A stretch of DNA of 32,037 nt from Erysipelotrichaceae bacterium (GTDB taxonomy: Bacteria; Bacillota_I; Bacilli_A; RFN20; CAG-631), in assembly GCA_022767485.1 (NCBI GenBank), contig JALEMY010000061.1, forward strand, positions 1 through 32,037, given 5' to 3'. A program made the translations under genes and the position numbers. Each line of letters starts with the position of its first letter. The stretch's first letter is position 1. Shown piece after piece: positions 11,670-28,441 of this stretch. The notes under the pieces were generated by a model that did not search any database, had not been told where the DNA came from, and saw nothing but the letters and a program-made list of their open reading frames with translations.

Positions 11670-14495
11670 TTAAGCTGCAAAATTAATAACAATTGACTCG
11701 AAATATAAAGTGTACTTAATATTATTAGTCATTTTAAAATAAGTATAAGTTGCAGAATCTGGAGTAACAGTATATTCTGTAACGTCTTTAACAGTTGATA
11801 ATGTAGTAGTGTAATCACTAACATCAGCTGTAGTACCAAAATTAAATAATAATGCATCAGTATTGTTATAAGTAGTTTGTGATGAACTGTAAGTAAATAC
11901 GATGCTTTCAATTGGTTTTGCAAATGCTGTAGTATTATACATTACTCCAACATTCTTTTTAATTTGAATACCATCTCCAAAGTCACCAATGTTAATATGA
12001 TAGAAAGTAACGCCAGAAACTTCAACTGTTGCTTCTTCATATGTTGTTAATGATAAAGTTTCACTAGTTAATGTAATATTAGATGAAGGAGCTACTGGAG
12101 TAACTAATGTATAAGTTCCATTAACTACTTCAACTACTTTATCATTGTAAGTTCCATCAACTAATGTAGTTTCAAAGAATGTATTGTCAGTCATTGTAGT
12201 AAATGATTGTCCAAATAAACTATTAACTACTGGAAGCATTTGTTCAACGCTTCCTGTAACAATTGTAACACCAGTAGGACATACAACGTCATATAATGTC
12301 CAAGCGCCAACTTCAACGCCATTAATTTCAACTTTAGCTGGATATCCTGCAAATTGAGCATCTAATTCAAAAATACCACAAGTTTGTCCAGCAACCCAAG
12401 CATAATTTCCATCGTGATAGAAACCATCAGCTGGTCCACCATAACCATCTTTTGTAAATGAAGCAAAGAATATTTTTCCAGTTGCATCATAAGCTACAGT
12501 AATGTCACCTAAAGTAACATCAGTGTCAGCATCTGTATAAACAGTTGGAGCATTTTCATTAACAAAGTTGATTACAATTGAATCAAAATAGAATGAGTAA
12601 GATAGATTTAAATCCATTTTAAAGAATGTGTAAGTTTCAGCGTCAGGAGTTACTGTGTAAACTTTAGTATCTTTAACAGTAGATAGATTAACTGTAGAAG
12701 TTAATGCATCAGCAGAATTTCCAAATGAGAATGTGAATGCATCAGCATTATCAAAAGTATTTTTACTTGCATTGCAAGTTAATGTAATATTAGCAATTGG
12801 TTTATCAAATGCAACAGTGTTAGCTAAAGATGATGCATTTCCACCATCTGCGCTCTTATTTCTCATTTGAATACCATTACCATAGTTACCAAGTTCAACA
12901 TAGTCAAATGTGTAATTTCCAACTTTAGCTGTTCCAGCTGCATATGATGAAAGTTCTAGGTAATTAACATCTAAAGTTACACAATTAGTTGTATCTTGAA
13001 CACCTAAAACTGTAAATGAAATTTCAGCATCGTCGCTTGCATTATTTAATGAACCAGATACTTTAATAGTATAAGTAACATCAGCAGCTGCTGGAGTAAT
13101 TGTTAACTCATTTCCATTTAATACTGCAGAATCACCAGCTACAACTTCATAAGATAAAGTAGTTCCATTATCACCAGTAGTTGGTAAAGTTACTTTTTGA
13201 GTTTGCGAATACATTTCCTTTAATGATCCACTAACAGCATTTAAATCGCCAGTAACTTTTGCACTATCTGATAAAGTTCTATCAGTAATTTCAATAGCAT
13301 CAAGAGAAATTGGAGTTAAATAATAATTACCATTATAAATTGATAATAAACCTTTTAAGTTAGCTTTATAACCTTCATTCCATTCAGATACAAGTTCAGT
13401 CATTTGTGCTGAAGTAAATCCATTAAATGAAGTTGAAGTTCTTAAATAGTATTGAGTTTCATTGATTGTAAAGTAATAATAATAGTTTGAAGAATCAATT
13501 ACACCAAATGTTACACCGCTTACTGATACTGGTCTATTTTGATATGGTACGAATGCACTATCAGATATTGATGTAACTGAATTAAATACGTCAGTAATAT
13601 CAGTATAAGTTACAGCAAAATCATCTGCTTTATCATTTAATAATGTAACTGTACAACCACTATTAAATTCATATTGCTTACTATAAATAGTAGCAGTACC
13701 GGCAACTAAAATTTCATCACCAATTTCAAAATCAGAATAAGAAATATCTTTTGGTGAATATGCATAGAACCCTTCGTTATTTTCATTTACAAAATAAATA
13801 CCTGATTTATAAATAGCAACGATATGTCCTTTTGCATTAACAATTTCTGATGACTTATTATCAGCTAATTCTTTAAACTCTGCAAATGTTGCAAACTTAA
13901 ATTCTGGTACAACAAAATCAAAAGTAACAGAAGCAGTATCATTTTCAGAAACTACGATATTTGCTGTAACTTTCATAATAGTGTCTGCAGTATTAGTTTC
14001 AGCACCATAAACAACATTAAATGTTTGTAATCCATCTTTATCTACTTCTCCAAGAGTGATTGCATCTTCTACTGGTCCGCTTACAAATTCAACAGTATAA
14101 GTGATTGTAGAAACTACTTCTTCATCATTGTCATTGTAACAAACAGGACTAGTTGGTAATTTGAATGTAGCAGTTTTATTAACATTATCTTTTCCACCAT
14201 AAGTACCTTCTAGATATGGAGCAACAACATCTGCTGCATAAGTTGTAGCAACAACTTCTTCGCTTGATGAAACTTCTTCACTTGATGAAACTTCTTCACT
14301 TGATGAAACTTCTTCACTTGATGAAACTTCTTCACTTGATGAAACTTCTTCGCTTACGCTATCACTAGGCACAAAAACATCACTTGATTCAGATTTGTTT
14401 TCACTTGAACCATCATTTGGAGTGTTACATGCAGCTAAACCAAATGCAAGAACAGTTGAAAACGATAAAACTAATAATTTTTTAAATGATTTCAT
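11670..14495 (-). CDS. Large multidomain surface lipoprotein (OB-fold, Ig-like, duplicated C-terminal module)
   Basis: The 941-residue protein starts with a lipoprotein signal (LAAC, Cys23) and a Ser/Glu linker of SSSEEV repeats to about residue 82. An Ig-like beta domain follows (about 85-195), then an OB-fold-like domain (about 198-285, with KGHIVAIYKSGIYFVNE and FEIGDEILVAGTATIY). An atrophied bacterial Ig-like domain lies at about 433-495. The last part holds two copies of a beta-rich module (about 503-645 and 803-941) separated by a different domain. The copies share LSTVKD, YTVTPD, TYT-F-KM and SIVINF signatures. I know no named family for the module; a carbohydrate- or polymer-binding role is possible. 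SD AAAGGGAA precedes the ATG. It is the last gene of the ABC operon, 19 bases after the nuclease gene. Confidence 0.8.
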   Translation of the reverse strand: MKSFKKLLVLSFSTVLAFGLAACNTPNDGSSENKSESSDVFVPSDSVSEEVSSSEEVSSSEEVSSSEEVSSSEEVSSSEEVVATTYAADVVAPYLEGTYGGKDNVNKTATFKLPTSPVCYNDNDEEVVSTITYTVEFVSGPVEDAITLGEVDKDGLQTFNVVYGAETNTADTIMKVTANIVVSENDTASVTFDFVVPEFKFATFAEFKELADNKSSEIVNAKGHIVAIYKSGIYFVNENNEGFYAYSPKDISYSDFEIGDEILVAGTATIYSKQYEFNSGCTVTLLNDKADDFAVTYTDITDVFNSVTSISDSAFVPYQNRPVSVSGVTFGVIDSSNYYYYFTINETQYYLRTSTSFNGFTSAQMTELVSEWNEGYKANLKGLLSIYNGNYYLTPISLDAIEITDRTLSDSAKVTGDLNAVSGSLKEMYSQTQKVTLPTTGDNGTTLSYEVVAGDSAVLNGNELTITPAAADVTYTIKVSGSLNNASDDAEISFTVLGVQDTTNCVTLDVNYLELSSYAAGTAKVGNYTFDYVELGNYGNGIQMRNKSADGGNASSLANTVAFDKPIANITLTCNASKNTFDNADAFTFSFGNSADALTSTVNLSTVKDTKVYTVTPDAETYTFFKMDLNLSYSFYFDSIVINFVNENAPTVYTDADTDVTLGDITVAYDATGKIFFASFTKDGYGGPADGFYHDGNYAWVAGQTCGIFELDAQFAGYPAKVEINGVEVGAWTLYDVVCPTGVTIVTGSVEQMLPVVNSLFGQSFTTMTDNTFFETTLVDGTYNDKVVEVVNGTYTLVTPVAPSSNITLTSETLSLTTYEEATVEVSGVTFYHINIGDFGDGIQIKKNVGVMYNTTAFAKPIESIVFTYSSSQTTYNNTDALLFNFGTTADVSDYTTTLSTVKDVTEYTVTPDSATYTYFKMTNNIKYTLYFESIVINFAA
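14253..14355 (-). repeat. 18-nt in-frame tandem repeat encoding SSSEEV (5 units plus a partial unit)
   Basis: Five full units of AACTTCTTCACTTGATGA (plus strand; the first has a C-to-G-type variant, CGC for CAC) start at 14253, 14271, 14289, 14307 and 14325, followed by 13 bases of a sixth. Units two to five are essentially identical, indicating recent expansion. The array encodes the flexible linker behind the lipid anchor. Confidence 0.9.
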
Positions 14496-14514: not shown

Positions 14515-15987
14515 TTACGCTATTTCTAATTCATTTAAAGTAAATACATGGATTTGAATTTTACCATTGTATTTTGTAACAATACCCTTCACAGAAATAT
14601 TTTTATTTAAAACCTCTTCTGCTGTAAGAAGAGTATCGTCATCATGTTTTAAAACAGAAGTTCTAACAGTAACAACATTGCCGTCATTATCTTTACATGT
14701 CAAAGTTAAAGCGCCATTAGAATTTATGTTAGTTGATTGAGTTGTATATACTTTTGTTACTAATAAATTATTCATAGTTACATATGTTGATTCTATCTTT
14801 TCACCAACAGAAAGTGTATCACCTTCGTTTTCAATGCGTGTAGATAAATCATCATAAGTTACTTCATGAGCAACTACTTCAACATTTTTTTCAAGTATTT
14901 TCATACTTCCTTCATAATCAGGAGTCATTGGTAAATATGCTAAACCAGATACTTGCCATGTTCCATATTCTGGACTATTTGAATCTGGAGCGTAAAAGGA
15001 TAATGTTCCAACAAGCCTTAAATAATTACCTGAAGCTAATGGAGCAAACTTTGTATAACCGGCATAAAAATTCATACCATACCATCTATCATCTTCGGCA
15101 TCATATGACTCAGCATATGCCATATGATTAAATGGATCATATAATGTAACTAAACCTTCAACACATACCTTCTTATCTTTATATTCGCTAGCATTTAAGC
15201 GCAATTCTTTCATAGAAAGACTAATAGCATTACCATCATAATAATTAGGGTCTTTATCATTGCTATATAACTTTAATTTTAAATTCATCGCTTGTAAATT
15301 TGCAGCATAGAAAGTATCGTATAAAGAGTATGATGAGGCACTTTTTAATTTAGCAAGGCCATTTTGAATCAATTCAAGATTCAATAAACGATAATCCGAA
15401 TGTTCGTCAACACGATACCAAACCCATACTAAATATCTGCCACCAGTCGTATCAGTGTTCCAAGTATTTGTATCAGATTGTAAAATAATTGATTGGGCAG
15501 ATTCTAGGGCATCCTTAGTAAATAAAGAAGCAGATTTTCCCCATTTTTCTACTTTTCCTGTTGATTCTGGTGTATCAACAGAATTGTATCTAGCTTTTAA
15601 ATAATCATCTTCAATCCAAACGGATGGAGTACCAACTGGAACAAAATGCGTAGTATCACCATCAACATAATGTAATACTTCTACTTCAGCTGTAATCTTA
15701 CTTGAATCAGTTAAATCAAGTTTTGTTTGAGAAACATAGTCAACAAAGACAGCCTCTTCGCTAGATGATTCATTAACTTCGTCAGAGTTTGATATTTCAC
15801 TAGAATCATCATTTTCTTCTTCTGATGATTGTGATATTTCATTAGAATCATCATTTTCTTCTACTGATGATTGTGATATTTCATTTCCGCTAGTTTGACT
15901 ACTATCAGAAACATTTGAATTGTTATTACATGATGCAAGGAAAAGCAAAGCGACTAATAATAATAAATTTTTATTAAACTTTTTCAT
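14515..15987 (-). CDS. Lipoprotein thermonuclease (SNase domain) with C-terminal OB-like domains
   Basis: The 490-residue protein has a lipoprotein signal ending at Cys20 and an Asp/Glu/Ser linker with a duplicated 14-residue unit. A staphylococcal-nuclease domain spans about 97-235. The metal and catalytic residues are all visible: Asp109/Asp111 (VDGDT), Arg133 and Glu141 eight apart (RYNSVDTPES), Asp138, and Arg184 (GGRYLVWVWY), matching Arg35, Asp40, Glu43 and Arg87 of the S. aureus enzyme in spacing. LELIQNGLAKL completes the fold. Two OB-like segments follow (about 250-350 and 380-490). It should cut DNA or RNA at the cell surface with calcium. SD AAAGGGAA precedes the start, 18 bases after the second binding-protein gene. 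Confidence 0.88.
   Translation of the reverse strand: MKKFNKNLLLLVALLFLASCNNNSNVSDSSQTSGNEISQSSVEENDDSNEISQSSEEENDDSSEISNSDEVNESSSEEAVFVDYVSQTKLDLTDSSKITAEVEVLHYVDGDTTHFVPVGTPSVWIEDDYLKARYNSVDTPESTGKVEKWGKSASLFTKDALESAQSIILQSDTNTWNTDTTGGRYLVWVWYRVDEHSDYRLLNLELIQNGLAKLKSASSYSLYDTFYAANLQAMNLKLKLYSNDKDPNYYDGNAISLSMKELRLNASEYKDKKVCVEGLVTLYDPFNHMAYAESYDAEDDRWYGMNFYAGYTKFAPLASGNYLRLVGTLSFYAPDSNSPEYGTWQVSGLAYLPMTPDYEGSMKILEKNVEVVAHEVTYDDLSTRIENEGDTLSVGEKIESTYVTMNNLLVTKVYTTQSTNINSNGALTLTCKDNDGNVVTVRTSVLKHDDDTLLTAEEVLNKNISVKGIVTKYNGKIQIHVFTLNELEIA
15791..15874 (-). repeat. 42-nt in-frame tandem duplication in the nuclease linker
   Basis: Two 42-base units (15791-15832 and 15833-15874) differ at only a few positions, and a 10-base partial copy follows. 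They encode two copies of the 14-residue acidic unit EISQSSxEENDDSx between the lipid anchor and the nuclease domain. Confidence 0.85.
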
Positions 15988-24891: not shown

Positions 24892-25305
24892 TTAAAATTT
24901 TCTATCTAGATATGTTTGTAAAATGACAGTTGCTGCAACTTTATCAACTACTTTTTTTCTTTTTTTACGAGATACATCAAATGTCAATAAGGCATTTTGC
25001 GCAGTAATTGTTGACATCCTTTCATCTACTTCAACAATTTTAATTTGTTTTCTTTTTAATATCTCTTCTTCAAATCTTTTTGTTCTAGCGCAACCTTCAC
25101 TAAAGTCACCATTCATATGATATGGCATACCAACAATTACTTCATCGACATCATTATCTTCAATAATCTTAATTATTTGTGTAAACAATTGATCATTTTC
25201 GTATTCATATCTAATAACAGTATATGAGGATGCAATCATTTTAAGTCCATCAGATAAAGCAACACCTACAGTTACACTGCCAATATCAAGTCCCATTGCT
25301 TTCAT
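24892..25305 (-). CDS. ruvX: RuvX/YqgF, putative Holliday junction resolvase / rRNA processing nuclease
   Basis: The 137-residue protein has the RNase H-like motifs GLDIGSVTVGVALSD, VGMPYHMNGDFSEGCARTKRF, VDERMSTITAQ and the C-terminal KVVDKVAATVILQTYLD, with the three acidic residues expected for two-metal catalysis. YqgF proteins are linked to 16S rRNA 5'-end processing and to branched-DNA resolution. Its ATG shares one base with the alaS stop (TAATG), so translation is coupled. The alaS-ruvX order is the same as in B. subtilis (alaS, yrzL, yrrK) with yrzL missing. Confidence 0.93.
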   Translation of the reverse strand: MKAMGLDIGSVTVGVALSDGLKMIASSYTVIRYEYENDQLFTQIIKIIEDNDVDEVIVGMPYHMNGDFSEGCARTKRFEEEILKRKQIKIVEVDERMSTITAQNALLTFDVSRKKRKKVVDKVAATVILQTYLDRKF

Positions 25306-27986
25306 TATAATAATCCCTCAATTAATGCTTTAACTTCACAAGCTTTTAATACATCTTTGCCACCAGCTTGAGCGAAGTCATTTCTTCCTCCGCCATTACC
25401 ACCACATAGCATAGCAGCTTTTTTTACAAGATTACCACATAAAATACCTTTATCATTAATCGCCTTATTAGCTTTTGCTACAAACAAAACTTTTTCATTT
25501 GAAACAGACATTACAAAAATTAAACAATCAGGATGTTCATTTTGTAAATTATCGGCAATTTGTTTAACTTGTGAACCATCATCAATTGATAAAGTAACGA
25601 AAATTAAATTAATGCCATTGATATTTTTAATATCAACATTTTTATAATCAAACGATGAAACCATCTTATCATTTAATGAATTCTTAATACTTTTATCCAA
25701 TGATTTAATGTTTTCTTTAAGTTTAACAATGGCATTTTTAATATTTAAAATCATCTGGTAAGAATTAACTTTCTCATAGTTGACATCTTTATCCACTAAA
25801 ACATTTAATTTCGCATTATTTGCTTGACTTAATAATTCCAAATATTTTTTATATAACATCTCATATTCATCAAAAATATTTTGATTTAATTCAATAATTT
25901 TTTCTATAACATTATTTCCTGTAACGGCTTGAACACGGAAAATACCTGAACCTTTTGATTCTATTGAAGCAATTGCAAAATCGATAATATTTTCAGTGTT
26001 ATTTGTATGACATCCACCACAAAATTCTTTAGAGTATCCGCCAATATTTACAATACGAACTATATTTCCATATTTTTCACCAAATAAAGAAATACATCCT
26101 TCTTTTTTAGCTTCTTGTAATGGAAGTTCATATTTTTTTACTTCAAGTTTTAATGCTATTTTTTCTTTAACAATATTTTCAAGTGCTAAAAGTTGTTCAT
26201 TAGAAACGTTTTCAAAATGATTAAAGTCAAATCTAATATTTTTTGCAGTTACTAATGAGCCGTGTTGATAAACGTGATTACCTAAAACATCTCTTAGTGC
26301 TTGATCAAAAAGGTGTGTTGCACTATGATTAAGTTCGATACTTTTTCGAGTTTGTTCATTTACTTCAAGATTAACAATATCACCAATATTAACACTACCT
26401 TGCATAATTTGTATTAAATGCATATGCTGACCATTTGGCATTTTTAAACAATCGTTAACGCTCGCTTTAAAATTATTATTATAGATGATACCACAATCAC
26501 CAATTTCTCCACCCATTTCAGCATAGAAAGGAGTTTTATCAGTAACTAAATATTCTTTATTATCTTCTTTGAAAATTCCTATAACTTTAGCATTGGATAC
26601 TTTCAATGTATCATAACCTACAAATTCGCTTTTATCCTTAAAATCCATCATTAAAAGATTTTGTGATTTCATAGAATTACGATCTCCTCTTGAACCTCTT
26701 GCAAGTTCTTTTTGACGATTCATCGCTGCATCAAAAGAGGACTTATCAATGGTAATGTTATGCTCTTGTGCAAACTCTAAAGTAATTTCAAAAGGGTATC
26801 CATAAGTGTCGTAAAGTAAGAAAGCATCTTCTCCAGATATACAATGATTTTTATTATATAAATCATTTAAAATCTTTTCACCATCAATTAATTTTTCTAA
26901 AAATTTTCTTTCTTCTATTGTAATTAAATTTTTAATATATTGTGCTTTTTCAAGAAGATATGGATAAAAATCCTTCATAATGTTTATTACTTCATCAACT
27001 AATAAAGCTAAAAACTCATGTTCAATACCTAATTTTTTACCATGCCTTACTGCTCTACGAAGCAATCTACGCAATACATAACCTCTTCCTTCGTTTGAAA
27101 AAGATGCACCATCTGCTAAAGCAAATGTACAAGTTCTCAAATGATCAGCGATAATTTTATAACTAGTTTTATATTCATCAACGTATGAATGCTTTGCTAA
27201 TGATTCACATTTTTTGATGATTGGATAAAACAAATCAGTTTCATAATTAGTTTCTGCATCTTGCATGATACAACAAAAACGTTCAAGCCCGGCTCCAGTA
27301 TCGATGTTTTTATGTGGAAGTTCCTTATAATCACTTCTTTTTACACCTGGTTTTGAATTAAATTGTGAAAAAACAATATTCCAAATTTCAATATATCTAT
27401 CGTTTTCAATATCGTTTTTTAATAATTCTATTCCTAAATTATTTGGATCGTATTTTTCTCCTCTATCAAAGAAAATTTCACTATCAGGGCCACAAGGACC
27501 TTCCCCAATTTCCCAAAAATTACCTTCACAAGGAATCATATGCGATGGATCAACACCAAGCATTACCCATTTATTATATGTGTCTTTATCTTCAGGAAAA
27601 TAAGTAATATATAACTTTTCTAATGGGATAGCAAAATATTTCTCACTAGTTAATAATTCAAATGCGAATTCAATCGCTTCAAATTTAAAATAATCGCCAA
27701 TAGAAAAATTACCCATCATCTCAAAAAAAGTATGATGCCTTGCAGTATGTCCAACATTTTCAATATCGTTAGTACGAATAGCTTTTTGAACGTTGCAAAT
27801 TCGTGGATTAGTAGGAATAACACTACCATCAAAATATTTTTTTAAAGCTGCAACTCCAGCATTAATCCATAATAAAGTCGGATCATTAACAGGAATTAAT
27901 GATGCTCCTTCTTCAATATGATGTCCTTTTTCTTTAAAAAAATTAAGCCAAATATTTCTAATTTCATTACTACTTAAATATCTCAT
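25305..27986 (-). CDS. alaS: Alanyl-tRNA synthetase
   Basis: This is a full-length 893-residue AlaRS. It has a class II catalytic core (SSNEIRNIWLNFFKEKGH, TARHHTFFEMMGNFSIGDYF, GRGYVLRRLLRRAVRHGKKLG) and an editing domain with the zinc ligands HSATH (near residue 554) and CGGCH (near 657). A coiled coil and the C-Ala domain follow, ending with CGGNGGGRNDFAQAGGKD. It charges tRNA-Ala and edits Ser/Gly mischarging. SD AGGAGG lies ten bases before the ATG, separated from it by a run of eight T that belongs to the T-box leader. Confidence 0.98.
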   Translation of the reverse strand: MRYLSSNEIRNIWLNFFKEKGHHIEEGASLIPVNDPTLLWINAGVAALKKYFDGSVIPTNPRICNVQKAIRTNDIENVGHTARHHTFFEMMGNFSIGDYFKFEAIEFAFELLTSEKYFAIPLEKLYITYFPEDKDTYNKWVMLGVDPSHMIPCEGNFWEIGEGPCGPDSEIFFDRGEKYDPNNLGIELLKNDIENDRYIEIWNIVFSQFNSKPGVKRSDYKELPHKNIDTGAGLERFCCIMQDAETNYETDLFYPIIKKCESLAKHSYVDEYKTSYKIIADHLRTCTFALADGASFSNEGRGYVLRRLLRRAVRHGKKLGIEHEFLALLVDEVINIMKDFYPYLLEKAQYIKNLITIEERKFLEKLIDGEKILNDLYNKNHCISGEDAFLLYDTYGYPFEITLEFAQEHNITIDKSSFDAAMNRQKELARGSRGDRNSMKSQNLLMMDFKDKSEFVGYDTLKVSNAKVIGIFKEDNKEYLVTDKTPFYAEMGGEIGDCGIIYNNNFKASVNDCLKMPNGQHMHLIQIMQGSVNIGDIVNLEVNEQTRKSIELNHSATHLFDQALRDVLGNHVYQHGSLVTAKNIRFDFNHFENVSNEQLLALENIVKEKIALKLEVKKYELPLQEAKKEGCISLFGEKYGNIVRIVNIGGYSKEFCGGCHTNNTENIIDFAIASIESKGSGIFRVQAVTGNNVIEKIIELNQNIFDEYEMLYKKYLELLSQANNAKLNVLVDKDVNYEKVNSYQMILNIKNAIVKLKENIKSLDKSIKNSLNDKMVSSFDYKNVDIKNINGINLIFVTLSIDDGSQVKQIADNLQNEHPDCLIFVMSVSNEKVLFVAKANKAINDKGILCGNLVKKAAMLCGGNGGGRNDFAQAGGKDVLKACEVKALIEGLL

Positions 27987-28200
27987 AAAAAAAATACCTC
28001 CTATACATTAATGTACATGTAGGAACGACTAAGTCGCGGTACCATCCTACTTCTCTTTCGAGCACTTGATTTATCTTTAACGTAAGATTAACGGGAATAA
28101 TTAGTTCCATCTCCAAAGTAGCAAAGTATATTTCTTTTAAACTATTTCCACCAGCAAGTTCTCTCTATAATCATCCATATACTTATTCTTTTTCATAGAC
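27987..28200 (-). promoter_or_regulatory. T-box riboswitch (alanine) controlling alaS
   Basis: The leader contains the T-box AGGATGGTACCGCG (28035-28048) with the TGGTACC bulge that pairs with the tRNA acceptor end. Distal stem I motifs are also present (AGAGAG and CTGGTGGAAA near 28150-28167). A GCT specifier codon (28120-28122) precedes ACTTTGGAG and matches alanine. The antiterminator pairs GTAGGA (28045-28050) with TCCTAC (28019-28024) around the stem CGAC/GTCG. The competing hairpin pairs TCCTA (28020-28024) with TAGGA (27999-28003), enclosing TACATTAATGTA, and is followed by eight T at 27987-27994. Its 3' arm is part of the SD. Uncharged tRNA-Ala should favour the antiterminator and alaS expression. 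Confidence 0.9.
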
Positions 28201-28206
28201 ACTTTT

Positions 28207-28212
28207 ATTATA
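28207..28212 (-). promoter_or_regulatory. -10 element of the alaS promoter
   Basis: The minus strand reads TATAAT just before the start of the T-box leader. The -35 region, 17 bases upstream, is AT-rich without a clear match. Confidence 0.55.
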
Positions 28213-28273: not shown

Positions 28274-28441
28274 CTATTTAATCTTTTTCTTTATTTCATC
28301 TTTTACATCCATAACCTTATTATAACATTGACGTTTTACTCTATTTAATTGATCTGTTTCATTCAAATAAATATAAGCTCCAGCACAGGTTAAAGCCATA
28401 ATAGTCATGGTACAAATAATCGTTTTAGAAAATTGACACAT
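28274..28441 (-). CDS. Small single-pass membrane protein, 55 residues
   Basis: A short gene reads MCQFSKTIICTMTIMALTCA and so on, ending DEIKKKIK with a TAG stop. It has one hydrophobic helix (about 7-26) and a charged cytosolic tail with heptad-like spacing (about 28-55). GGGTGATT precedes the ATG at 28439-28441 as a plausible SD. It lies 45 bases after the recD2 stop and just ahead of the terminator, so it fits as the last gene of that transcript. I see no known family. The cysteine at position 19 does not sit in a good lipobox. It may be a real small protein of the mnmA-recD2 unit. Confidence 0.6.
   Translation of the reverse strand: MCQFSKTIICTMTIMALTCAGAYIYLNETDQLNRVKRQCYNKVMDVKDEIKKKIK

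Follow-up and report, generated by a model that had tools for sequence, protein, structure and literature searches.

In the genome of an Erysipelotrichaceae bacterium, alaS is preceded by an alanine T-box whose competing hairpin holds the Shine–Dalgarno sequence (SD) of the gene, and a run of uridines occupies the gap between SD and start codon. We consider it probable, at roughly 0.6, that this hairpin is an intrinsic terminator which, in addition, masks the SD in transcripts that read through, termination being its primary output and masking a second lock. The proposal is drawn from four genomes of the family, and it builds on the arrangement of the leader, on its conservation and on the folds that it can adopt.

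Identity and Layout of the alaS Leader

Within the window, i.e., the whole stretch of 32,037 nucleotides that was analysed, alaS lies on the minus strand (25305..27986, ATG at 27986-27984) and encodes an alanine--tRNA ligase of 893 aa (TIGR00344, 866 bits), whose start co-aligns with its relatives from residue 1. Upstream, from Stem I to the antiterminator (28018..28205, minus strand, as are all the features below), the leader matches the T-box model RF00230 with 81.9 bits and an E-value of 2.9e-18 over the full model length (1-219 of 219), yet under the gathering score of 93; it was missed at the Rfam gathering threshold and recovered by E-value. As it spans the whole of a long-Stem-I model, its Stem I is long. 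The specifier GCU (Ala; 28120..28122 in the RF00230 alignment), followed by A, agrees with the regulated gene, and the T-box bulge UGGUACC (28038..28044) is intact in the sequence, the alignment and the folds. The UGGU of this bulge contacts the tRNA acceptor end, and its variable position, here U, fits A73 of the tRNA-Ala of this genome. Helix A1 is formed by GUAGGA (28045..28050) and UCCUAC (28019..28024); across the 87 alaS T-box leaders of the order, its four inner pairs are AGGA/UCCU without exception and its fifth pair covaries (TA 38, AT 28, CG 13, GC 4, non-Watson-Crick 4). Helix A2 (GCGAC/GUCGU with the loop UUA; 28025..28037) is present in both states of the leader. The alaS leader, the sixth of eight T-boxes in the source genome, is thus a genuine alanine T-box, as the sequence-only reading had recognised.

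Regarding the specifier, GCT is found in the aligned family relatives and GCC in one relative of family f3. The sole tRNA-Ala seen in the assembly (~81% complete) has the anticodon UGC (L261, 801-876, minus strand), with one close match each in G001 and in the two g2 genomes. Specifier and anticodon are usually described as forming three Watson-Crick pairs; here the third position of GCU faces U34, a U-U apposition that leaves two of them.

The 3' strand of A1 is also the contested strand, being complementary to the SD. Indeed, its UCCUA pairs with UAGGA (TAGGA, 28003-27999) in the competing hairpin UCCUACAU...AUGU-AU-AGGA (27999..28024), which takes the SD into its 3' arm in the folds, with the same placement in L010, L011 and L012. 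The SD itself, AGGAGG (27997..28002), is followed after UA by a U8 tract (27987..27994) that makes up the whole remaining gap to the AUG. All the elements quoted in the sequence-only reading (A1, bulge, TAGGA, SD, T8 and ATG) were found where it had placed them on the minus strand, including its two central features, an SD inside the decision hairpin and a U-run filling the gap between SD and ATG, and both extend to the family.

Further upstream, a -10-like TATAAT (28207..28212), read from the letters, is the likely leader promoter, and a consensus scan called no promoter at this site (28212-28207). It lies 3' of a terminator-like hairpin of 12 pairs (28268-28240), which belongs to the upstream unit and was detected by a consensus terminator scan. 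This hairpin follows a 55-aa ORF (28274-28441, minus strand) that has a hydrophobic N-terminal stretch and is located between recD2 and the alaS leader. Elsewhere in the window, a 941-aa ORF (11670-14495, minus strand), without Pfam or NCBIfam match, adjoins an SNase-domain protein (14515-15987).

Placement of the SD and U-Run Among Relatives

The arrangement is shared by all four family genomes, which represent two genera and in which the AlaS N-termini of the other three are 72-89% identical to that of the window. In each of them the SD, spaced by 10 nt from the ATG, precedes the U-run (U8, U8, U7 and U7) and lies within the competing fold; this location of SD and U-run argues for a terminator that also masks the SD. 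No terminator was found upstream of the SD in any of these four leaders; the comparison with relatives that the sequence-only reading had proposed, on SD inclusion and on a different terminator further upstream, hence leaves its account standing.

Across the order, the U-run is located 5' of the SD in 81 of the 87 alaS T-box leaders, and the six exceptions are the four leaders of the window's family plus a pair from a single further genus (f4g39). An SD-ATG spacing of at least 10 nt occurs in only 6 of the 83 other leaders, most of which have 5-8 nt. Within the source genome, the seven other T-boxes, upstream of genes read as thrS, valS, leuS, pheS, trpS, tyrS and ileS, all show a hairpin and a U-run followed by a separate SD, so that terminators are evidently in use in the T-boxes of this organism, which favours our reading. 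The layout is therefore as unusual with respect to relatives as had been claimed. Moreover, 99 starts supported by an SD were sampled over 252 kb of the source genome; apart from alaS, with its eight T, each has at most four T immediately ahead of the ATG, a further argument for our reading. Because termination precedes the SD in almost every relative, the family layout, with the terminator on the SD, is probably derived, judging from these sequence comparisons. G002 retains a U7 in a loop, at the position of the terminator U-run of relatives.

In the two f4g39 leaders (L096 and L097), the alaS T-box is directly followed by GAGG-U5/6-ATG with a weak fold (-5.8 kcal/mol), and no separate terminator was found between the two elements; they make up a second case in the order, possibly a translational or a decayed one. 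In L013-L017 (f4g38), as well as in L023, L026, L032, L035, L047 and others (f2g6), alaS has no T-box motif, an absence that appears to reflect losses, other families of the order having the T-box.

Competing Folds

The match between TCCTA and TAGGA is partly automatic, since UCCU is part of every A1 and always complementary to an SD; we consequently rejected this complementarity alone as significant, it being inherent to the AGGA/UCCU helix. When the extra pairing of the SD was compared with shuffles of the free bases only, p values of 0.06, 0.04, 0.02 and 0.35 were obtained for the four leaders: given the T-box and the SD, it beats the shuffles only modestly. The conserved placement of the SD, its 10-nt spacing and the T-run before the ATG, in contrast, exceed what chance would give.

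The simple hairpin of the window (46 nt) is weak, at -6.3 kcal/mol, and does not by itself stand out from chance (z -0.69). It stops some three bases short of the U-run, and to this extent the gap of three or four bases described in the sequence-only reading is correct. This gap disappears, however, in the lowest-energy alternative computed on a longer segment for the window and its congener G001, in which UACC of the bulge (28041-28038) pairs with GGUA just after the SD (27995..27998). The resulting three-way junction (closing helix, helix A2 and SD hairpin) ends at U8, so that the U-run directly adjoins the structure. In G003, a hairpin of -14.8 kcal/mol (z -4.33), whose 6-bp GUUCCU/AGGAAC base abuts U7, has the form of a textbook terminator. 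Stem and U-run are thus plain in G003 and are obtained in the window only through the bulge-closed junction, at near-equal energies. Termination combined with masking is favoured both by this stable hairpin next to U7 and by the fold that the window and G001 close through the bulge, right up to U8.

The energies of the terminator and antiterminator states are -13.6 and -14.1 kcal/mol for the window, -13.9 and -15.2 for G001, -14.9 and -12.8 for G003, and -9.8 and -11.7 for G002. The antiterminator is hence computed as slightly stabler than the alternative in three of the four family leaders, which counts against the terminator reading; as the difference between the two states ranges from about -7 to +7 kcal/mol across the order, such energies neither prove nor exclude function. 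With the alaS start included in the fold, the SD of the window can also form weak pairs with coding sequence while the antiterminator is in place. The consensus terminator scan did not call the competing hairpin of alaS, its only call on the minus strand being the terminator of the upstream unit. Both observations, like the modest gain over the shuffles and the small number of genomes (four), weigh against our reading.

The 3' arm of a T-box terminator is usually described as pairing with the 3' strands of A1 and A2 and not with the bulge. Thirteen of the 87 alaS leaders, mostly from a neighbouring family, have a GGUAC(C) 3' arm that pairs with GGUACC of the bulge and stands directly before U6-9 (L039, L031, L040-L045, L053, L071, L076, L105 and L106; 12 identified by script and L053 by eye). 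In these leaders, the OFF fold would mask the tRNA acceptor-binding site. That other relatives close their terminator through the bulge, in this GGUAC(C)-U7 type, lends support to our reading of the alaS leader.

Proposed Mechanism and Rival Explanations

We propose that the terminator of this alanine T-box has moved 3' onto the ribosome-binding site. Upon docking of uncharged tRNA-Ala, the A1/A2 antiterminator would hold UCCU and the bulge, and polymerase would read through with the SD outside the antiterminator. Without docked uncharged tRNA, UCCUA would pair with UAGGA, the SD arm thereby capturing UCCU; in the genus of the window, the bulge would in addition contribute its UACC to a pairing with GGUA, and the structure would end exactly at U8. 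Polymerase would then stop within U8, just before the AUG, and in OFF-state transcripts escaping termination the SD would still be paired and translation blocked as well. Since the SD would be in or near the exit channel while polymerase stands on U8, masking is expected to matter only for these escaping transcripts. The suggestion that one hairpin might both end transcription and hide the SD is supported as a possibility.

A T-box controlling transcription only, whose terminator would have drifted onto the SD during leader compaction, would share the conserved U-run, the strong hairpin of G003 and the long Stem I. Masking would then carry no regulatory weight, nearly all OFF transcripts ending before the AUG, and the likely position of the SD in or near the exit channel is in line with this. 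We nevertheless regard it as unlikely: the SD is in a paired strand in four of four genomes, so that any OFF-state transcript reading through ought to be masked, and in pT181, which has the same layout, added translational repression was found (PMC5435934). Conversely, the hairpin could be a sequestrator and the U-run incidental, as in the actinobacterial ileS T-boxes, where the SD is sequestered (PMC1262725). The weak simple hairpin of the window, the terminator scan without a call and the near-isoenergetic states, said to be needed by translational T-boxes (PMC7583486), would suit such translation-only control. Against it stand a U7-8 run kept in four genomes with no such T-run at the other sampled starts (99 in 252 kb), a G003 hairpin that abuts its U-run, the long Stem I and a fold able to close at the U-run. 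This explanation is quite improbable in our view, and translation as the main mode, towards which the sequence-only reading leaned, loses ground for the same reasons, as pure sequestration would not need a conserved U-run.

It is finally conceivable that the T-box is decaying, the switch of the family having lost its terminator and alaS being nearly constitutive. Although two groups of this order, f2g6 and f4g38, lack alaS T-boxes, and in three of the four leaders the alternative is no stabler than the antiterminator, we judge this very improbable, given that two genera have in common the T-box core with its specifier and bulge, the U-run and the location of the SD, in spite of coming from genera whose AlaS N-termini are ~27% different. 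A terminator that also masks the SD thus remains our preferred interpretation.

Comparable Layouts in Other Lineages

A pattern scan of GTDB returned many accidental matches, with GAGG in a terminator and the true start downstream (e.g., L251, asnS-like); the independent cases described here are therefore a hand-read lower bound, with genes named from their N-termini by reading and not by family search. Among the matches listed, an SD within a terminator with a stable hairpin was found for a Thermaceae valS (L123), for actinobacterial ileS (L151 and L177) and for metG-like genes of Lachnoclostridium phytofermentans (L180 and L190). Among the same listed matches, a thrS-like start of Williamsoniiplasma lucivorax (L182) shows this layout with a fold that also pairs ACC of the bulge with GGU after the SD, and MAGs of Bacilli and of Clostridium (L149, L166 and L194) carry a gene for a protein of 237-253 aa that is preceded by a T-box with the SD in a compact terminator. 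The motif LLHDIGRFEQ, read by eye in the product of the latter gene, suggests an HD-type phosphohydrolase. In L196 (uncultured Bacilli bacterium isolate Lapin-014__bin57), the end of the alaS leader is the same as in G003. A sample of 392 genomes of the phylum gave five pattern matches, two of them from the window's genus; L252, L251 and L255 were rejected as the same layout, having a separate terminator, a downstream start and only a weak fold, respectively.

That unrelated lineages show this layout again, with hairpins that are stable, argues, together with the pT181 precedent, for the dual function of the alaS hairpin. More tentatively, double control by a single hairpin, which terminates and masks the escapees, might be a recurrent and unrecognised third output mode of T-boxes, arisen independently in several phyla, with the bulge recruited into the terminator stem in the window's genus. 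Independent origins are plausible under this broader and rather speculative view because the AGGA/UCCU A1 is already an anti-SD, and the terminator need only slide onto the SD.

Known Systems and Significance

T-boxes are sorted in TBDB into class I, transcriptional, and class II, translational (PMC7778990). The alaS leader resembles the class I transcriptional T-box (RF00230) by its Stem I with specifier, its bulge, its A1 and A2 helices and its competing hairpin with U-run before a synthetase gene. It differs in that class I leaders usually have a terminator and then a separate SD, whereas here the SD is the 3' arm and is separated from the AUG by the U-run. In the translational T-boxes known for actinobacterial ileS, a hairpin likewise takes up and sequesters the SD (PMC1262725), but that class is described with a sequestrator in place of the terminator and often with a short Stem I, most translational T-boxes being associated with a shorter Stem I (PMC7583486). 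The alaS leaders do have their SD paired in the OFF fold; rather than a sequestrator without U-run, however, they carry U8, U8, U7 and U7, and Stem I is long.

The closest parallel in output is the pT181 repC attenuator, where an intrinsic terminator carries the SD in its 3' half and one hairpin serves both outputs, with a repression of 97% for protein versus 84% for mRNA (PMC5435934). The alaS leader has the same layout, an SD inside the 3' arm of the terminator with the U-run after it, whereas pT181 is controlled by an antisense RNA instead of tRNA and is not a T-box. Bifunctional terminators that also sequester the RBS, as suggested here, were proposed in general terms by Naville and Gautheret in 2010 (PMC2965389), and pT181 has since provided a demonstration; the passage concerned points to E. 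coli attenuators near start codons, contains no T-box example and presents none as demonstrated at that time. In the openly accessible literature, with the main T-box surveys outside its scope, we found no description of a T-box doing both with one hairpin.

If our reading is true, sorting leaders by the presence or absence of a terminator misfiles such cases, and less leak would be predicted for alaS, as has been measured for pT181. Moreover, a dual hairpin whose close relatives have plain terminators would make the two outputs separable by experiment, and it suggests a route by which T-boxes may pass from one mode of control to the other.
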